Positions 24,422 to 30,243 of a stretch of 64,000 bases of DNA are shown one piece after another. The stretch covers positions 3,305,501-3,369,500 of the forward strand of contig NC_014623.1 of assembly GCF_000165485.1 (NCBI RefSeq). The letters run 5' to 3'. Under the pieces are notes generated by a model, which was not told the DNA's origin, did not search any database, and saw nothing but the letters and a program-made list of their open reading frames with translations. Origin of the DNA: Stigmatella aurantiaca DW4/3-1. Lineage in GTDB: Bacteria; Myxococcota; Myxococcia; Myxococcales; Myxococcaceae. The stretch's first letter is position 1. Every line of letters begins with the position of its first letter. Made by a program: the position numbers and the translations under genes.

Positions 24422-24564
24422 ATTGCCCCAGGGGGATCTTCCGCTCGAGGTGGTGGCTCCAGTATTTATTTTTTGTCAAGAAGTCTTGATGCGTTGTCGC
24501 TGCTGCATGAGCCGGGCCGGCAGTGACGACATACCGGACGAATCAATCAAGGAAGAGGATGACC

Positions 24565-25197
24565 ATGTTCAAGCGCATCATGATGCTCACCATGATGGTA
24601 ATCGCGCCGCTGGCTACTGCTGCGGATCAGACAAACCCATACAAACTCACGAACGAAGTGGCACAGAAAACCTTTGACCGCCTGAAACGCGAACAGCCCC
24701 AGATCCGTCAGCATCCTGACCACCTGCGGACCATTGCCCATCAAGAACTGCTCCCTTATACACAGTTGAAGTACGCGGGTGCACTGGTGTTAGGGGCCTA
24801 CTACAAGTCGGCGACGCCGACGCAGCGTGACGCTTACTTCAAGGCGTTTGAAGAATATGTGGCACAGGCCTTCGGCCAAGCGCTGGGGTATACGCATAGC
24901 GACCAGACCTACCAGATTGCTCCAGAGCAACCGCTGGGCGACAATAACAAGGCGGCGATCCGTGTCACCATCATCAAGTCGAACGACCGTCCGCCGCTTC
25001 ACCTGGACTTCCAGTGGCGCAATTACAGCAAGAAGGGTTATTGGCAGGCTTATGACGTAATTATCGAAGGTGTCAGCATGGTCACCACGAAGCAAAACGA
25101 GTGGGCTGATATCCTGCGCACCAAAGGTATCGATGGTCTGACCGCGCATCTGCAGGACAGTGCCAAGCAGCCGATCACCCTGGACAATAATAAATAG
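24565..25197 (+). CDS. mlaC: MlaC-like phospholipid-binding protein of enterobacterial type
   Basis: A 210-residue protein beginning [19 protein letters not shown], a signal peptide cleaved before ADQTNPYKL, with GGAAGAGG upstream. The mature protein follows E. coli MlaC as I remember it almost throughout: [61 protein letters not shown] and [19 protein letters not shown]. MlaC ferries phospholipids between the outer-membrane MlaA complex and the MlaFEDB transporter. No other mla gene is nearby, base composition is clearly lower in GC than the neighbours, and flanks are gene debris. Recent transfer from a gammaproteobacterium or an assembly chimera are both possible. Confidence 0.85.
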
Positions 25198-25820: not shown

Positions 25821-27695
25821 ATGCCCCAAGACGTATTCATCACGGCCCTGGGCAAGTTTCTCCCGGGCGACCCCATTCCCAATGAGCAGATCGAGGACTA
25901 CCTCGGCAAGGTCCGGGGCAAGCCCTCGCGCGCACGCAGCCGGGTCCTCGCACAGAACGGCATCACCCAGCGACACTATGCCCTCGATCGGGAGCAGCGC
26001 ACGCGCTTCCGCAACTGGGAGTTGGCCGTCCATGCCATCCAGGATGCGCTGGGGCGCTCGCCCATCACCCTGGGGGAGATGGACCTGCTCGTCACCGCGA
26101 CCACTCAGGCGGATCTCGTCCTTCCCGGCTTCGCCAGTCAGGTCCACCGGGCCCTGGGCGGACCCGCCTGTGAGGTCTCCTCTATCCAGGGCATCTGCTC
26201 CAGCGGCATGCAGGCGCTGCGCGCCGCCTCGTTGCAGGTGGCCAGCGGCGAGGCATCGCGCGCCATTGTCTGCGCCAGCGAACTGGTGAGCCGGCTGCTC
26301 AAGGCCGCCCACTATGAGGAGGTGTCCGACGGTTCGAACTCGGTGCCCTTCGAGGCCGAGTTCCTGCGCTGGATGCTCTCCGATGGCGCGGGGGCCGCGG
26401 TGCTTCAGGACCGGCCCCACCCCTCGCGGCCGAGCCTCAAGGTGGACTGGATCGACATCCGCTCTCACGCCAACAAGTACGAGCTGGGCATGTACGTGGG
26501 GGCCCACCGCGGCCCGGACGGAGGCTTCGGCACGGGGTGGATTGACTATCCCTCCTTTACCGAGGCCGCCGCGGCGGGGGTCTTCACCATCAAGCAGGAC
26601 ATCCGGCGGCTGGACTCCCTGGTGGCGCTGGGCGTGGACGGATTCTTCGCGCTCATGGACCAGGGCCTCCTCCAGCCCGCCGAGATCGACTGGTGCCTCA
26701 TCCACTACTCATCCCTCCACTTCAAGCAGCCCATCATCGATCTGCTGGAGAAGGGTGGCGTGCGCATTCCCCAGGAGCGCTGGTTCAGCAACCTGTCCAC
26801 GCGTGGAAACACCGGGTGCGCTTCCATCTTCCTCATGCTCGAGGAACTGGTGAACGAGGGCCGCGTCCGGCCAGGCGAGCGCATCTTCTGCATGGTCCCG
26901 GAGAGCGGCGGCTTCATCACCTGCTACGCCATGCTCACCGTGGTTTCTCCTACTGCCCCCCAGCGCTCGGCCCTCTCCCTGACCACCTTGCCGGCCTCCG
27001 AGACGGCCCTCCTGGCCCCCTCCCCGGGAGATCCTCTTCGCGAGAAGCTGGTGCGGGAGCTGACGCACGTCTGGGTGGACTTCGAGGGGAAGCTCCAGCG
27101 TGTGCCCATCCTCGAGAAGCTCTCGCGCGGCGTGTTCTCCGTGGAAGACTACCAAGCGCTGCTCATCAACCTCCGCCAACAAGTGGTGGAAGGTTCACGG
27201 TGGATTGCCCGCGCCGCCTCCCACATCACCGAGGAGCACCTGGCGCTGCGCTCGTCCTTCATCCGCCACGCCCGGGACGAGCACCGCGACTACGAGATGC
27301 TGGAGCGCCACTACGTCTCCCTGGGCGGCAGGCAGGAGGACATTGCCCACGCACCGAAGAACATCGGCAGCGAGGCCCTCTCCGCGTGGATGTTCCACCG
27401 CGCCGGCCAGGACAATCCGTTTGATCTGCTGGGCGCCATGTTCATCATCGAGGGCCTGGGCAGTCGCGTGGCGCGGCGCTGGGGTCTGGCCATCCGCGAG
27501 CAGCTCGGGCTCACGGAGGATCAGGTGCGCTTCTTCCTCTACCATGGCGAGAACGACGGCTCGCACATGGAGCGGCTGGAGGCGGCGCTGGGCTCCGGCA
27601 TCCTCACGCCCGAGCTGGCCGCTCGCATCGTCAAGACGGCGAAGGTGACGGCACGGCTCTACCTGCTGCAACTCGAGGAGCTGGGAAATGTCTGA
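25821..27695 (+). CDS. Fusion: KAS III-like ketosynthase + heme-oxygenase-like diiron/redox domain
   Basis: A 624-residue two-domain protein (ATG 25821; the upstream open frame is a shadow of the preceding region). Residues 1-375 are a FabH-type thiolase fold with the complete triad: Cys126 in GICSSGMQ, His295 in LIHYSS and Asn330 in RGNTGCAS. Residues 395-624 match the TENA/PqqC-like iron-containing redox fold, with likely ligands in EEHLALRSSFIRHARDEHRD, MLERHY and later Glu/His helices. Such oxidases cleave or desaturate acyl or amino-acid substrates. The fusion suggests that a condensed acyl product is handed to an oxidative step. It overlaps the desaturase gene by 8 bases. Confidence 0.8.
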   Translation: MPQDVFITALGKFLPGDPIPNEQIEDYLGKVRGKPSRARSRVLAQNGITQRHYALDREQRTRFRNWELAVHAIQDALGRSPITLGEMDLLVTATTQADLVLPGFASQVHRALGGPACEVSSIQGICSSGMQALRAASLQVASGEASRAIVCASELVSRLLKAAHYEEVSDGSNSVPFEAEFLRWMLSDGAGAAVLQDRPHPSRPSLKVDWIDIRSHANKYELGMYVGAHRGPDGGFGTGWIDYPSFTEAAAAGVFTIKQDIRRLDSLVALGVDGFFALMDQGLLQPAEIDWCLIHYSSLHFKQPIIDLLEKGGVRIPQERWFSNLSTRGNTGCASIFLMLEELVNEGRVRPGERIFCMVPESGGFITCYAMLTVVSPTAPQRSALSLTTLPASETALLAPSPGDPLREKLVRELTHVWVDFEGKLQRVPILEKLSRGVFSVEDYQALLINLRQQVVEGSRWIARAASHITEEHLALRSSFIRHARDEHRDYEMLERHYVSLGGRQEDIAHAPKNIGSEALSAWMFHRAGQDNPFDLLGAMFIIEGLGSRVARRWGLAIREQLGLTEDQVRFFLYHGENDGSHMERLEAALGSGILTPELAARIVKTAKVTARLYLLQLEELGNV

Positions 27696-28560
27696 GCGCC
27701 TGCATCCCCTGTGGCTGGTGCCGTTCTGCCTGGGCTACTACCTGCTGGCGGGACTGGCCATCAACGTGGCCTATCACCGCGTGCTCTCGCACCGCTCGCT
27801 CACGCTCAACCGCTGGCTGGAACGGCTGTTCGTCCTCCTGGGGCTGCCCGCGGGCACCCCCATCCAGTGGGCCGGCAACCACCGCTGGCATCATGGGCAC
27901 ACGGACGTGCTGGGAGACCCGCATTCGCCCGTGCTCAACGGATTCTGGTGGGCGCACGTGGGCTGGTACATCGGCACGCGCAACCCCGTGGTGTGCTTCC
28001 TCTACTCCATCGCGGGTCCTCTGCGCGTGCTGTACGACGGGTGGCACCGGCCTCGAAGCAACCAGCAGTTCAACCACCTGGCGAAGGACGTGGCGGCGGA
28101 CCCCTGGTACGTCTTCATGAGCCGCCCCATTCCCTACCAGTTCTTCTGCACGCTCCACGTGCTGGTTCCCGCGGGAGGGGGCTACCTGCTCTTCGGCCCC
28201 GCCGGCGTGGCCGCGTTTTGGGGCATGCTGGTGCTCCTCTTCAACCTGGGGGATGCCATCGACAGTGTCTCGCACATCTGGGGCGAGCGGCCCTTCGCCG
28301 AAGTCCACCAGGCCCGCAACGGCCTCTTCATGGGCCTGTTCACGCTGGGAGAAGGCTGGCATGCCAACCACCACAGCTTCCCCTCCAGTGCCCGCCACGG
28401 GCTGCTGCCCGGCCAGTTCGACTTCATCTGGCACGTCATTCGCGGTTTGGAGTGGCTGGGGCTCGCCAAGGACCTCCATGTTCCCAGCGCGGAGGCCATC
28501 GAAGCCCGGAAGCTCCGGCCCGTGCCCACGCCACCCATCCGCGTCACCCTTCCCGAGTGA
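27688..28560 (+). CDS. Acyl desaturase (delta-9 type, membrane di-iron)
   Basis: A 290-residue integral-membrane desaturase with the three histidine clusters in order: HRVLSH (HX4H) near residue 30, HRWHH near 66 and HANHH near 227. Hydrophobic spans flank them (LVPFCLGYYLLAGLAINVAY at the N-terminus, YLLFGPAGVAAFWGMLVLLF near 170). It places a cis double bond in an acyl chain using O2 and an electron donor. It is translationally coupled to the KAS III fusion and followed 3 bases later by an unknown gene, so the three are one operon. Confidence 0.9.
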   Translation: MSERLHPLWLVPFCLGYYLLAGLAINVAYHRVLSHRSLTLNRWLERLFVLLGLPAGTPIQWAGNHRWHHGHTDVLGDPHSPVLNGFWWAHVGWYIGTRNPVVCFLYSIAGPLRVLYDGWHRPRSNQQFNHLAKDVAADPWYVFMSRPIPYQFFCTLHVLVPAGGGYLLFGPAGVAAFWGMLVLLFNLGDAIDSVSHIWGERPFAEVHQARNGLFMGLFTLGEGWHANHHSFPSSARHGLLPGQFDFIWHVIRGLEWLGLAKDLHVPSAEAIEARKLRPVPTPPIRVTLPE

Positions 28561-28563
28561 GTC

Positions 28564-29505
28564 ATGGCGTCCGTCGATCCTGTCGAGCTGCTCCGCAACG
28601 AACCGCATGATCCACGCGACCCCGACCCCTGGGTGGCGCTCTTCTTGGACCGAAGCCTGCCCATGCACGAGCGCACCAAGGCGGCCCTGCTCGTGGATCA
28701 GCGCTCGGCCTCGCGGCAGTTTCTCTTGCCCGTCCTCCGGCCCTTTTCGCGGCTGCTGATCATCGTCTTCCAGATCCTGAAGATCTTCGTCCCCAAGCGG
28801 TTCACCTCCTCGAAGCTGCTGCACCGGTTGCTGTCCTGGGGATTGCGGAACTTCGTGAGCCCGGAGGCCAACTACCTCATCCTGCGCCACTTCCACGTGG
28901 GCTCGGAGATCCTGGACTTCATCGCGAGAAACACGCCCGAGCTGGGCGTGCCCACGAATCCCATCCGTCCGACGAACCTGGGGCACGTCAAGGGGGAGAT
29001 CTTCCTCAACCATGACTTGAACCTCTACAACTTCGTCATCCGCCTCAACCGCGCCATGAGGGAGCAGGACCGCACCCTGGCACCGCCTCGGAAGCTGGAC
29101 TTCAGCGGCATCTCGAACGAGTTCCCCATCGAGCCCATGCCACGGCGGTGGACGAACTTCATGGATCTCCAGTCGGCGATCGAAATCTTCACGCCGATGT
29201 ACCAGCTCTTCCTCACGGACCGGGACTTCTGGCGCGCGAGCAACTCGCTTCAGCTCGACGAGACCATCGCCATCTACGTCGCCACGCTGCTCCAGGCGCC
29301 CGGGCTCGTGGCCATCGTGAACAACCGCCACCCGATGGTGCCGCTTTCGACGATGCGCGCAGGCTTCCGGCTGATGCTGCACGGGCTCTCGGCGGAGTCT
29401 CTCCACGGCTTTCTGGTGGAGTGCAAGAACGGGCGGATGCCGCAGCTGGCGCGCATCGTCGCCCCTTCACTCCAGGTGCACCTGCCCGTCACCGAGGTGG
29501 CTTGA
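28564..29505 (+). CDS. Conserved-looking unknown protein of the lipid cluster
   Basis: A 313-residue protein starting 3 bases after the desaturase stop. It has one hydrophobic stretch (LLIIVFQILKIFV near residue 60) and otherwise looks soluble. Patterns worth noting are NYLILRHFHVGSEILDFIAR near 100, GEIFLNHDLNLYNFVIRLNR near 138 and SLQLDETIAIYVATLLQAPG near 223, with spaced His/Asp/Glu that could bind metal. No known family is recognised. Being third in a KAS III-desaturase operon, it may act on or carry the acyl product. Its 3' end overlaps the convergent hydroxylase gene by 39 bases. Confidence 0.75.
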   Translation: MASVDPVELLRNEPHDPRDPDPWVALFLDRSLPMHERTKAALLVDQRSASRQFLLPVLRPFSRLLIIVFQILKIFVPKRFTSSKLLHRLLSWGLRNFVSPEANYLILRHFHVGSEILDFIARNTPELGVPTNPIRPTNLGHVKGEIFLNHDLNLYNFVIRLNRAMREQDRTLAPPRKLDFSGISNEFPIEPMPRRWTNFMDLQSAIEIFTPMYQLFLTDRDFWRASNSLQLDETIAIYVATLLQAPGLVAIVNNRHPMVPLSTMRAGFRLMLHGLSAESLHGFLVECKNGRMPQLARIVAPSLQVHLPVTEVA

Positions 29506-30243
29506 GCCGCGGCTCAACGCGGACCCCAGGAGCCGATCGAGCACCGGGCTCTGAAAGCCGAAGTTCCCGTTCACCTTGCGGTGGTGCAGGGAGTGGTGCT
29601 CGCTCGCGCGCAGCGGCGCGCTCCACCAACGCGGGGTGGCCAGGGCGTAGTTGAGGTGGCCCAAGGTGTTCATCCACAAGCTCACCAGGGGGTAGGTGAG
29701 CGCCGCCCAGAAGCTCAAGTCGTAGAAGAGCTGGAGGGTCACCATCACGCTGCCCAGCAGGAGCGCCTCCACCGGGTGGAAGCTGTACGTCGAAAAGGGC
29801 GTCGGCACCCGGGAGCGGTGATGAACGGCGTGCACGTGACGGAAGAGCCATCGCGTGTGCAGCAAGCGGTGACAGAGGTAGAAATGCACTTCGTTCCAGA
29901 GCGTGAGGACCCCCAGATCGACGGCGAGTCCGGTGGCTGTCAGCTCCCAGCGGATGTGCGTGAGGCCCCGGGCGTCGAGCGCCAGGGTGAGCGCGCCATA
30001 GCCTCCGAAAATGGCAATCGACACGAGCGACAAGCCCACCTCCTCGCGCACCTGCCCGGGGCGCAAGGGCCGCTCGTCAATCACGTGCCCAACGCCGAGC
30101 CGGGGAAAGACACGGCGGGACAGCCAGGAGCCCAGGATTCCGAGGCCGAAGTAGATCAGCGCGAAGCCCGCGGCGGTGAGGGCGCCCAGCACGGGCAGCG
30201 AAGAGCGCTGGACAAAGCCATAAAGCGATTGCTCGAAGTTCAT
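29467..30243 (-). CDS. Sterol desaturase / fatty acid hydroxylase family protein
   Basis: A 258-residue membrane protein with the fatty-acid-hydroxylase histidine pattern: HFYLCHRLLH near residue 120, HAVHHRS near 138 and EHHSLHHRKVNGNFGF near 215. Four hydrophobic spans are visible (VLGALTAAGFALIYFGLGIL, VGLSLVSIAIFGGYGALTLA and two between the His boxes). Members insert hydroxyls or double bonds into sterols, carotenoids or acyl chains with a di-iron centre. It converges on the KAS III-desaturase operon and may modify the same lipid. Confidence 0.88.
   Translation of the reverse strand: MNFEQSLYGFVQRSSLPVLGALTAAGFALIYFGLGILGSWLSRRVFPRLGVGHVIDERPLRPGQVREEVGLSLVSIAIFGGYGALTLALDARGLTHIRWELTATGLAVDLGVLTLWNEVHFYLCHRLLHTRWLFRHVHAVHHRSRVPTPFSTYSFHPVEALLLGSVMVTLQLFYDLSFWAALTYPLVSLWMNTLGHLNYALATPRWWSAPLRASEHHSLHHRKVNGNFGFQSPVLDRLLGSALSRGSSHLGDGQVHLE

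Follow-up and report, generated by a model that had tools for sequence, protein, structure and literature searches.

What would a bacterium make with a condensing enzyme that carries its own oxidase? The question is raised by a 64,000-nucleotide stretch of Stigmatella aurantiaca DW4/3-1 (hereafter the window), taken from a genome of 10.26 Mb in one contig with close relatives among the Myxococcaceae, in which a single open reading frame (ORF) of 624 aa on the + strand (ATG at 25821, stop ending at 27695) links a ketosynthase of the KAS III type (β-ketoacyl-acyl carrier protein synthase III) to a heme-oxygenase-like oxidase. The original prediction, made from this locus, had described such a fusion, coupled it to a desaturase and an unknown protein, placed a sterol-desaturase-type hydroxylase opposite, and proposed an unusual oxidised or terminally unsaturated lipid as the product. 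Regarding the genes, this description stands: Pfam finds ACP_syn_III and ACP_syn_III_C in the first half of the ORF and Haem_oxygenas_2 (PF14518) at residues 461-614 of the second (45.3 bits, cut-off 28.9), the desaturase ORF (PF00487) overlaps the fusion ORF by 8 bp and is separated by a gap of 3 bp from the gene of the unknown protein, identified here as PF22523/DUF6999 (412.3 bits, cut-off 27), and the convergent hydroxylase gene (PF04116) overlaps the latter by 39 bp at its 3' end.

Comparison with other genomes indicates which of these genes belong together: the conserved core consists of the ketosynthase, the oxidase and DUF6999, the desaturase and the hydroxylase being accessory or exchanged. 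As for function, with a probability of about 0.4, the operon would be a conserved aerobic lipid module, in which a DarB-like ring formation would be followed by O2-dependent oxidation by the fused domain.

Conservation and distribution of the gene set

A search for the same domain pair and operon in other genomes, which the original prediction had put forward as a check, found both halves in 35 loci (L006-L040) from several phyla and the oxidase half alone in one (L063), when only the fusion served as query; L006 shows 84% identity across the fusion. As a fusion or as adjacent split genes, the set is present in Myxococcota, Acidobacteriota, Pseudomonadota, Cyanobacteriota/Melainabacteria and Poseidoniales archaea. 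Nine of the 35 loci are fused (L006-L014) and the other 26, from Melainabacteria/Cyanobacteria, Gammaproteobacteria, one "Actinobacteria" bin and 16 archaeal contigs (Poseidoniales or Euryarchaeota), have the ketosynthase and the oxidase as neighbouring and mostly overlapping genes. Since other species show this fusion and its gene order as well, the fusion is not a chance event. In the window's genome, a second full copy was not found, the four other ketosynthase matches being weak and partial.

DUF6999 adjoins the oxidase gene in 33/35 of the loci with both halves, as well as in L063, and the two exceptions (L009, L010) are contigs ending within the desaturase gene. In the reverse search from DUF6999, the oxidase is adjacent in 24 of 26 loci (L125-L150, among which L146 is probably the same locus as L006, both contigs having a length of 11728), the exceptions being L142 and L143. 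In the genome of L143 (G005), the fusion, desaturase and hydroxylase lie 3.75 Mb away from DUF6999 on one contig (C2:2229182 and C2:5981653, i.e. L165 and L143) and both parts are intact, which makes this genome a natural experiment on functional linkage in the absence of a shared operon. In L142 (genome G195), the ketosynthase and DUF6999 are present, the oxidase of the ketosynthase-linked family was not found in the genome by oxidase profile search, and the ORF beside the ketosynthase clusters with a cytochrome P450 encoded near the ketosynthase on two Streptomyces plasmids, as if another oxidase filled the role there.

At the genome level, DUF6999 exceeds its cut-off in 21/195 Myxococcota, 9/398 Pseudomonadota, 17/292 archaeal-phylum and 7/292 Cyanobacteriota/Melainabacteria-phylum genomes. 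The oxidase profile scores split into two well-separated groups, with 19 of the 195 Myxococcota genomes scoring at least 158.9 bits and the next 50.2, and 9 of the 398 Pseudomonadota genomes scoring at least 169.5 and the next 83.7. These nine are exactly the nine with DUF6999. All 19 Myxococcota genomes with a strong oxidase also carry DUF6999, so that, among the 195 searched, 21 have at least one of the two and 19 have both; those with DUF6999 and no strong oxidase are G195 and G035. Even among Myxococcaceae the gene set is patchy, which suggests loss and transfer. Of note, G035, where a strong oxidase is absent, holds a broken DUF6999 remnant in two frames (L071, C2:170404), consistent with a joint loss of the set.

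The ketosynthase half

The catalytic triad Cys126-His295-Asn330 reported in the original prediction is invariant in 86/86 ketosynthase rows, free-standing relatives included, and E154, R183 and the FLRWMLSDGAGA stretch also occur in StlD. The best solved-structure matches are those of StlD (5gk0-5gk2, E 6.5e-81). The top NCBIfam models are StlD/DarB NF005293 (392.5 bits, curated cut-off 450), then DarB NF053539 (353.8 bits, cut-off 550), and because both scores lie below the cut-offs the enzyme is classed as DarB-like and not as DarB. According to the available part of PMC5515871, DarB forms 4-carboxy-2,5-dialkylcyclohexane-1,3-diones, and PMC3949708 assigns, in a dialkylresorcinol cluster, the cyclase role to darB and the aromatase role to darA. 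By analogy, this StlD/DarB-like half would most likely form a cyclohexanedione. Cyanobacterial dialkylresorcinol clusters add a dimetal halogenase (PMC8406957, available excerpt), a pairing of the same logic as that of the ketosynthase with its oxidase. While the homology to the StlD/DarB ketosynthase-cyclases is full-length and includes the features listed above, the window enzyme differs from them in being fused or, in its relatives, adjacent to a heme-oxygenase-fold oxidase and associated with DUF6999, besides its lower scores.

In the ketosynthase tree, which is unrooted and comprises 70 of 87 rows after removal of those more than 95% alike, one supported group (99/99) contains 22 of the 23 split rows, a second one (23 rows, 100/99) unites the free-standing rows with StlD among them, and the fused rows are scattered across several positions, so that oxidase-linked rows are placed elsewhere than StlD. 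As the root is not fixed, fusion-first and split-first histories are both possible. No alignment position discriminated the oxidase-linked from the free-standing rows at the thresholds applied. The free-standing relatives found in Desulfobulbales and in further, mostly anaerobic lineages have, as read from the sequences, FabF-like ketosynthase, acyl carrier protein (ACP) and acyltransferase-like neighbours, without a heme-oxygenase-like dimetal oxidase (HDO). As a separate observation, two Streptomyces plasmids (L073, 11712-19351; L074, 7703-15349) carry a StlD/DarB-like ketosynthase next to genes for an ACP, a 321-aa protein without Pfam match, a flavin adenine dinucleotide (FAD) oxidoreductase, SCP2, FabF, the P450 and an ACP; DarA was not found beside these two DarB-like genes, the window's own genome having had no DarA sequence search.

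Some members of the thiolase superfamily, to which the window enzyme also belongs, such as OleA and PpyS, join two acyl thioesters into a long β-keto acid or a pyrone without a cyclising condensation. A head-to-head condensation of this kind, the oxidase then desaturating or hydroxylating the chain, would fit with the scores below the StlD/DarB cut-offs, and a scan of ten window proteins recognised neither an ACP nor a gene of fatty-acid elongation. The StlD/DarB matches are nonetheless far ahead of those to OleA-type models and the StlD-type FLRWMLSDGAGA is kept, which makes this non-cyclising reaction rather unlikely and leaves ring formation as the favoured reading of this half.

The oxidase domain and its predicted metal site

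The predicted structure of the oxidase domain (239 residues, 21-row alignment) has a mean pLDDT (predicted local distance difference test) of 91.9. For the structure alignments of the oxidase and DUF6999, 21 HDO and 17 DUF6999 loci were kept, and 20 and 17 of them, respectively, were combined with the window, loci being omitted for stops or ambiguous letters in frame, for low coverage or for being more than 93% alike; the HDO locus L024 was omitted. The model, which has the seven-helix heme-oxygenase fold, superimposes on 3dde (Z 25.4, root-mean-square deviation 1.9, 217 aligned), on CADD (Z 23.1, 2.0, 209 residues), on PqqC (Z 20.5) and on UndA and FlcD (Z 19.5 each). The TENA/PqqC-like label of the original prediction was thus right for the fold, the nearest functionally characterised structure being CADD.

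Known HDOs coordinate their metals by the motif E-H-E-H-(D/E)-H across three helices (PMC11363339, PMC13108848, parts available), and this together with a few others makes up the fold motifs reported in the available part of PMC11363339. Conservation was read from 62 HDO rows and, for DUF6999, 61 rows, near-duplicates included. In the ketosynthase-linked family, five positions of the canonical motif are kept, with E487, E544, H575, D579 and H582 invariant in 62/62 rows, and the α-1 metal histidine is replaced by Asp490, again in 62/62; of the ligands that the original prediction expected within residues 395-624, those five were therefore found and the α-1 histidine was not. His483, four residues ahead of E487, is invariant too (62/62), and position 457 is Glu in 60 rows and Asp in two. 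Position 488 is His in 55 rows and Gln in seven, hence H488 is not needed.

Eight free-standing HDOs from another gene setting (L157-L164), which lie beside AMP (adenosine monophosphate)-ligase, short-chain dehydrogenase/reductase (SDR) and tetratricopeptide repeat (TPR) genes and form the next-best Pseudomonadota group (up to 83.7 bits), align without gap through α-1. In 8/8 of them the canonical E-x2-H stands opposite E487-x2-D490, all eight have Tyr in place of His483, and neither ketosynthase nor DUF6999 was found in their loci. The profile alignment of the oxidase to 3dde is in agreement with this. With CADD, UndA, BesC, SznF and FlcD, the window oxidase shares the fold, PF14518, the α-2 Glu and the α-3 H-D-H, and differs from them by E487-x2-D490 in place of the α-1 E-x2-H, by His483 and by the ketosynthase fusion. 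Regarding the free-standing group itself, a set of AMP-ligase, HDO, SDR and TPR-type protein, the neighbours being named from sequence, is seen in L157, L158, L160 and L163, with ligase and HDO fused in L160, and the HDOs of this set are related to 3dde, their nearest solved structure, which has no assigned function.

From the residues conserved, the ligand set appears present but rearranged, and we infer that the domain may bind two metals. The replacement of the α-1 histidine in every row and the strong structural match to PqqC would also suit a catalyst with a single metal or, like PqqC, with none, or else a scaffold holding the ketosynthase product, the more so as a changed motif can mean a single iron, as in FlcD (available part of PMC11363339). 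E544 and H575-x3-D579-x2-H582 are however invariant and aligned with the canonical α-2 and α-3 ligands, as are E487 and the extra His483 in their conservation, and this alternative looks quite improbable. The oxidase half is thus heme-oxygenase-like and probably metal-dependent.

The words "fused", "fusion", "ketosynthase" and "resorcinol" are absent from the text of the HDO review PMC13108848, and no paper was found linking heme-oxygenase-like diiron or iron-containing redox enzymes with a ketosynthase, with StlD, or with ketoacyl and desaturase.

The DUF6999 protein

The DUF6999 model is helical (pLDDT 86.4, predicted template modelling score 0.85). Comparison of structures gave no usable match, with a best Foldseek probability of 0.10 and a best Z of 4.5 in VIA-align 2, and profile searching against solved structures gave nothing usable either; this lack of a match does not show a new fold. 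D29, R51, R108, H109, N123, H150, D151 and D201 are invariant in 61/61 rows, and D232, H273 and E278 occur in 60/61, the last row having a gap. A guess from the invariant His, Asp and Glu residues would be a further enzyme, perhaps metal-using. A diverged HDO was considered and ruled out (profile-comparison probability below 1%). No paper using the name DUF6999 was found.

Proposed pathway and its significance

In the proposed pathway, the ketosynthase would link two activated acyl chains, the likeliest outcome being a ring of the 4-carboxy-2,5-dialkylcyclohexane-1,3-dione type, as DarB produces. The fused oxidase would then take over the ring carboxylate and oxidise it with O2, plausibly by an UndA-like oxidative decarboxylation that would aromatise the ring into a dialkylresorcinol-like head and so, by analogy, make a separate aromatase such as DarA dispensable; the ring or the chains would subsequently be modified by DUF6999 and the membrane oxygenases. 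UndA, which has the same fold, oxidatively decarboxylates carboxylates (available part of PMC13108848), and because the DarB ring needs the aromatase DarA, the attached oxidase would be a natural replacement, a chain of reasoning that is conjectural throughout.

Several points weigh against this pathway. The ketosynthase lies below both curated cut-offs, so DarB activity is not to be assumed, and the Asp found at the α-1 histidine position in all rows means that the metal site may be altered, mononuclear or inactive. The Fisher tests of co-occurrence (2e-24 in Myxococcota, 2e-18 in Pseudomonadota) were computed ignoring shared ancestry. Finally, the product is putative, and a terminal alkene is possible if not favoured.

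Such an alkene, or a C-C-cleaved oxidised lipid, would arise if the oxidase acted in an UndA-like manner on an ordinary fatty acyl chain, with the ketosynthase serving in chain initiation. UndA adopts the heme-oxygenase fold as well and HDOs typically act on fatty acids (PMC13108848, available part), yet the tie of the oxidase to a DarB-type ketosynthase, fused and split and across phyla, would be needless for an enzyme of free fatty acids, the α-1 ligands depart from the canonical E-H pair and UndA is not the nearest structure, all of which makes this route very unlikely. A StlD/DarB-like ketosynthase rather implies the joining of two chains and a ring than a simple terminally unsaturated lipid; of the product first proposed, the lipid-type operon is retained and the emphasis moves to ring formation, as in the pathway outlined above.

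The gene set is widespread and unstudied, and combines known enzyme kinds in a new way, one metal site being changed. Its recurrence in bacteria and archaea points to a lipid or a signal molecule. A bolder and doubtful extension would be a new class of ring-headed, possibly redox-active membrane lipid, common to soil myxobacteria, other bacteria and marine archaea, made with a heme-oxygenase-fold aromatase of rearranged metal site (H483, E487, D490, E544, H575, D579, H582), fused to the condensing enzyme and replacing the flavin-type aromatase; DUF6999 would then represent a new enzyme family. In any case, an isolated fusion becomes a testable gene set across bacteria and archaea and DUF6999 gains a functional context. 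If true, aromatisation of a DarB-type ring would be a reaction not listed for HDOs in the available part of the 2026 review PMC13108848, and the heme-oxygenase fold would gain, through the invariant ligand change, a further way of binding metals.

Accessory genes and genomic context

The original prediction had named the desaturase and the hydroxylase, along with the unknown protein, as neighbours of the fusion. As the core of the system these two were ruled out, since the desaturase is missing beside many intact sets of ketosynthase, oxidase and DUF6999, other membrane enzymes substitute for them in further loci, and it is DUF6999 that recurs. The desaturase, whose delta-9-type label in the original prediction is putative and based on a resemblance of histidine motifs, adjoins the set in Myxococcaceae and in some of the archaea. 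A different PF00487 protein precedes the fusion in six Pseudomonadota loci, five of which also have a PF04116 hydroxylase. Hydroxylase homologues stand beside the set in L006, L013, L125-L129 and L144, plus G005. In the cyanobacterial loci (L133-L138), the fusion and DUF6999 have no other common neighbour, a PF00487-type match lying 2 kb away in L133.

The split-gene loci carry instead C5, a His-rich membrane-type protein of ~190 aa, present in 31 loci rows just upstream of the ketosynthase gene (L016, L019, L021, L025, L072, L132, L139, L140 and L150, among others). Its invariant residues are D26, H30, E36, E43, H47, H81, H86, D88, E102, H104 and H106 (A4 numbering), a pattern from which it is possibly a new membrane metalloenzyme. 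There was no consistent Pfam or NCBIfam match among 17 rows, and a diverged fatty acid hydroxylase or desaturase was ruled out (profile-comparison probability below 1%). The window's genome gave no C5 match, a weak negative as the query lacked a run on a known positive genome there.

Table 1. Operon features and convergent neighbour, in window coordinates
Feature	Position	Strand	Evidence
StlD/DarB-type ketosynthase half, residues 1-376, C126/H295/N330	25821..26948	+	Pfam ACP_syn_III and ACP_syn_III_C, NF005293, StlD structures
Heme-oxygenase-fold half, probable oxidase, residues ~395-624, stop included	27003..27695	+	PF14518, predicted structure
Membrane fatty acid desaturase, accessory, not in all family members	27688..28560	+	PF00487, 73.6 bits (cut-off 29.7)
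DUF6999 protein, conserved partner of the ketosynthase-oxidase pair	28564..29505	+	PF22523, 412.3 bits; co-occurrence
Sterol-desaturase-type fatty acid hydroxylase, convergent, accessory	29467..30243	-	PF04116, 91.6 bits (cut-off 31)

Besides the operon, the window holds an MlaC gene (24523-25197, + strand) that scores 347.9 bits against an E. coli-type MlaC model (cut-off 195), has a guanine-cytosine fraction of 0.54 vs. 0.67 for the window, and shows 69.6% DNA identity with E. coli mlaC over 88% of the 721-base query; the myxobacterium seems to have acquired it recently from an enterobacterium-like donor.

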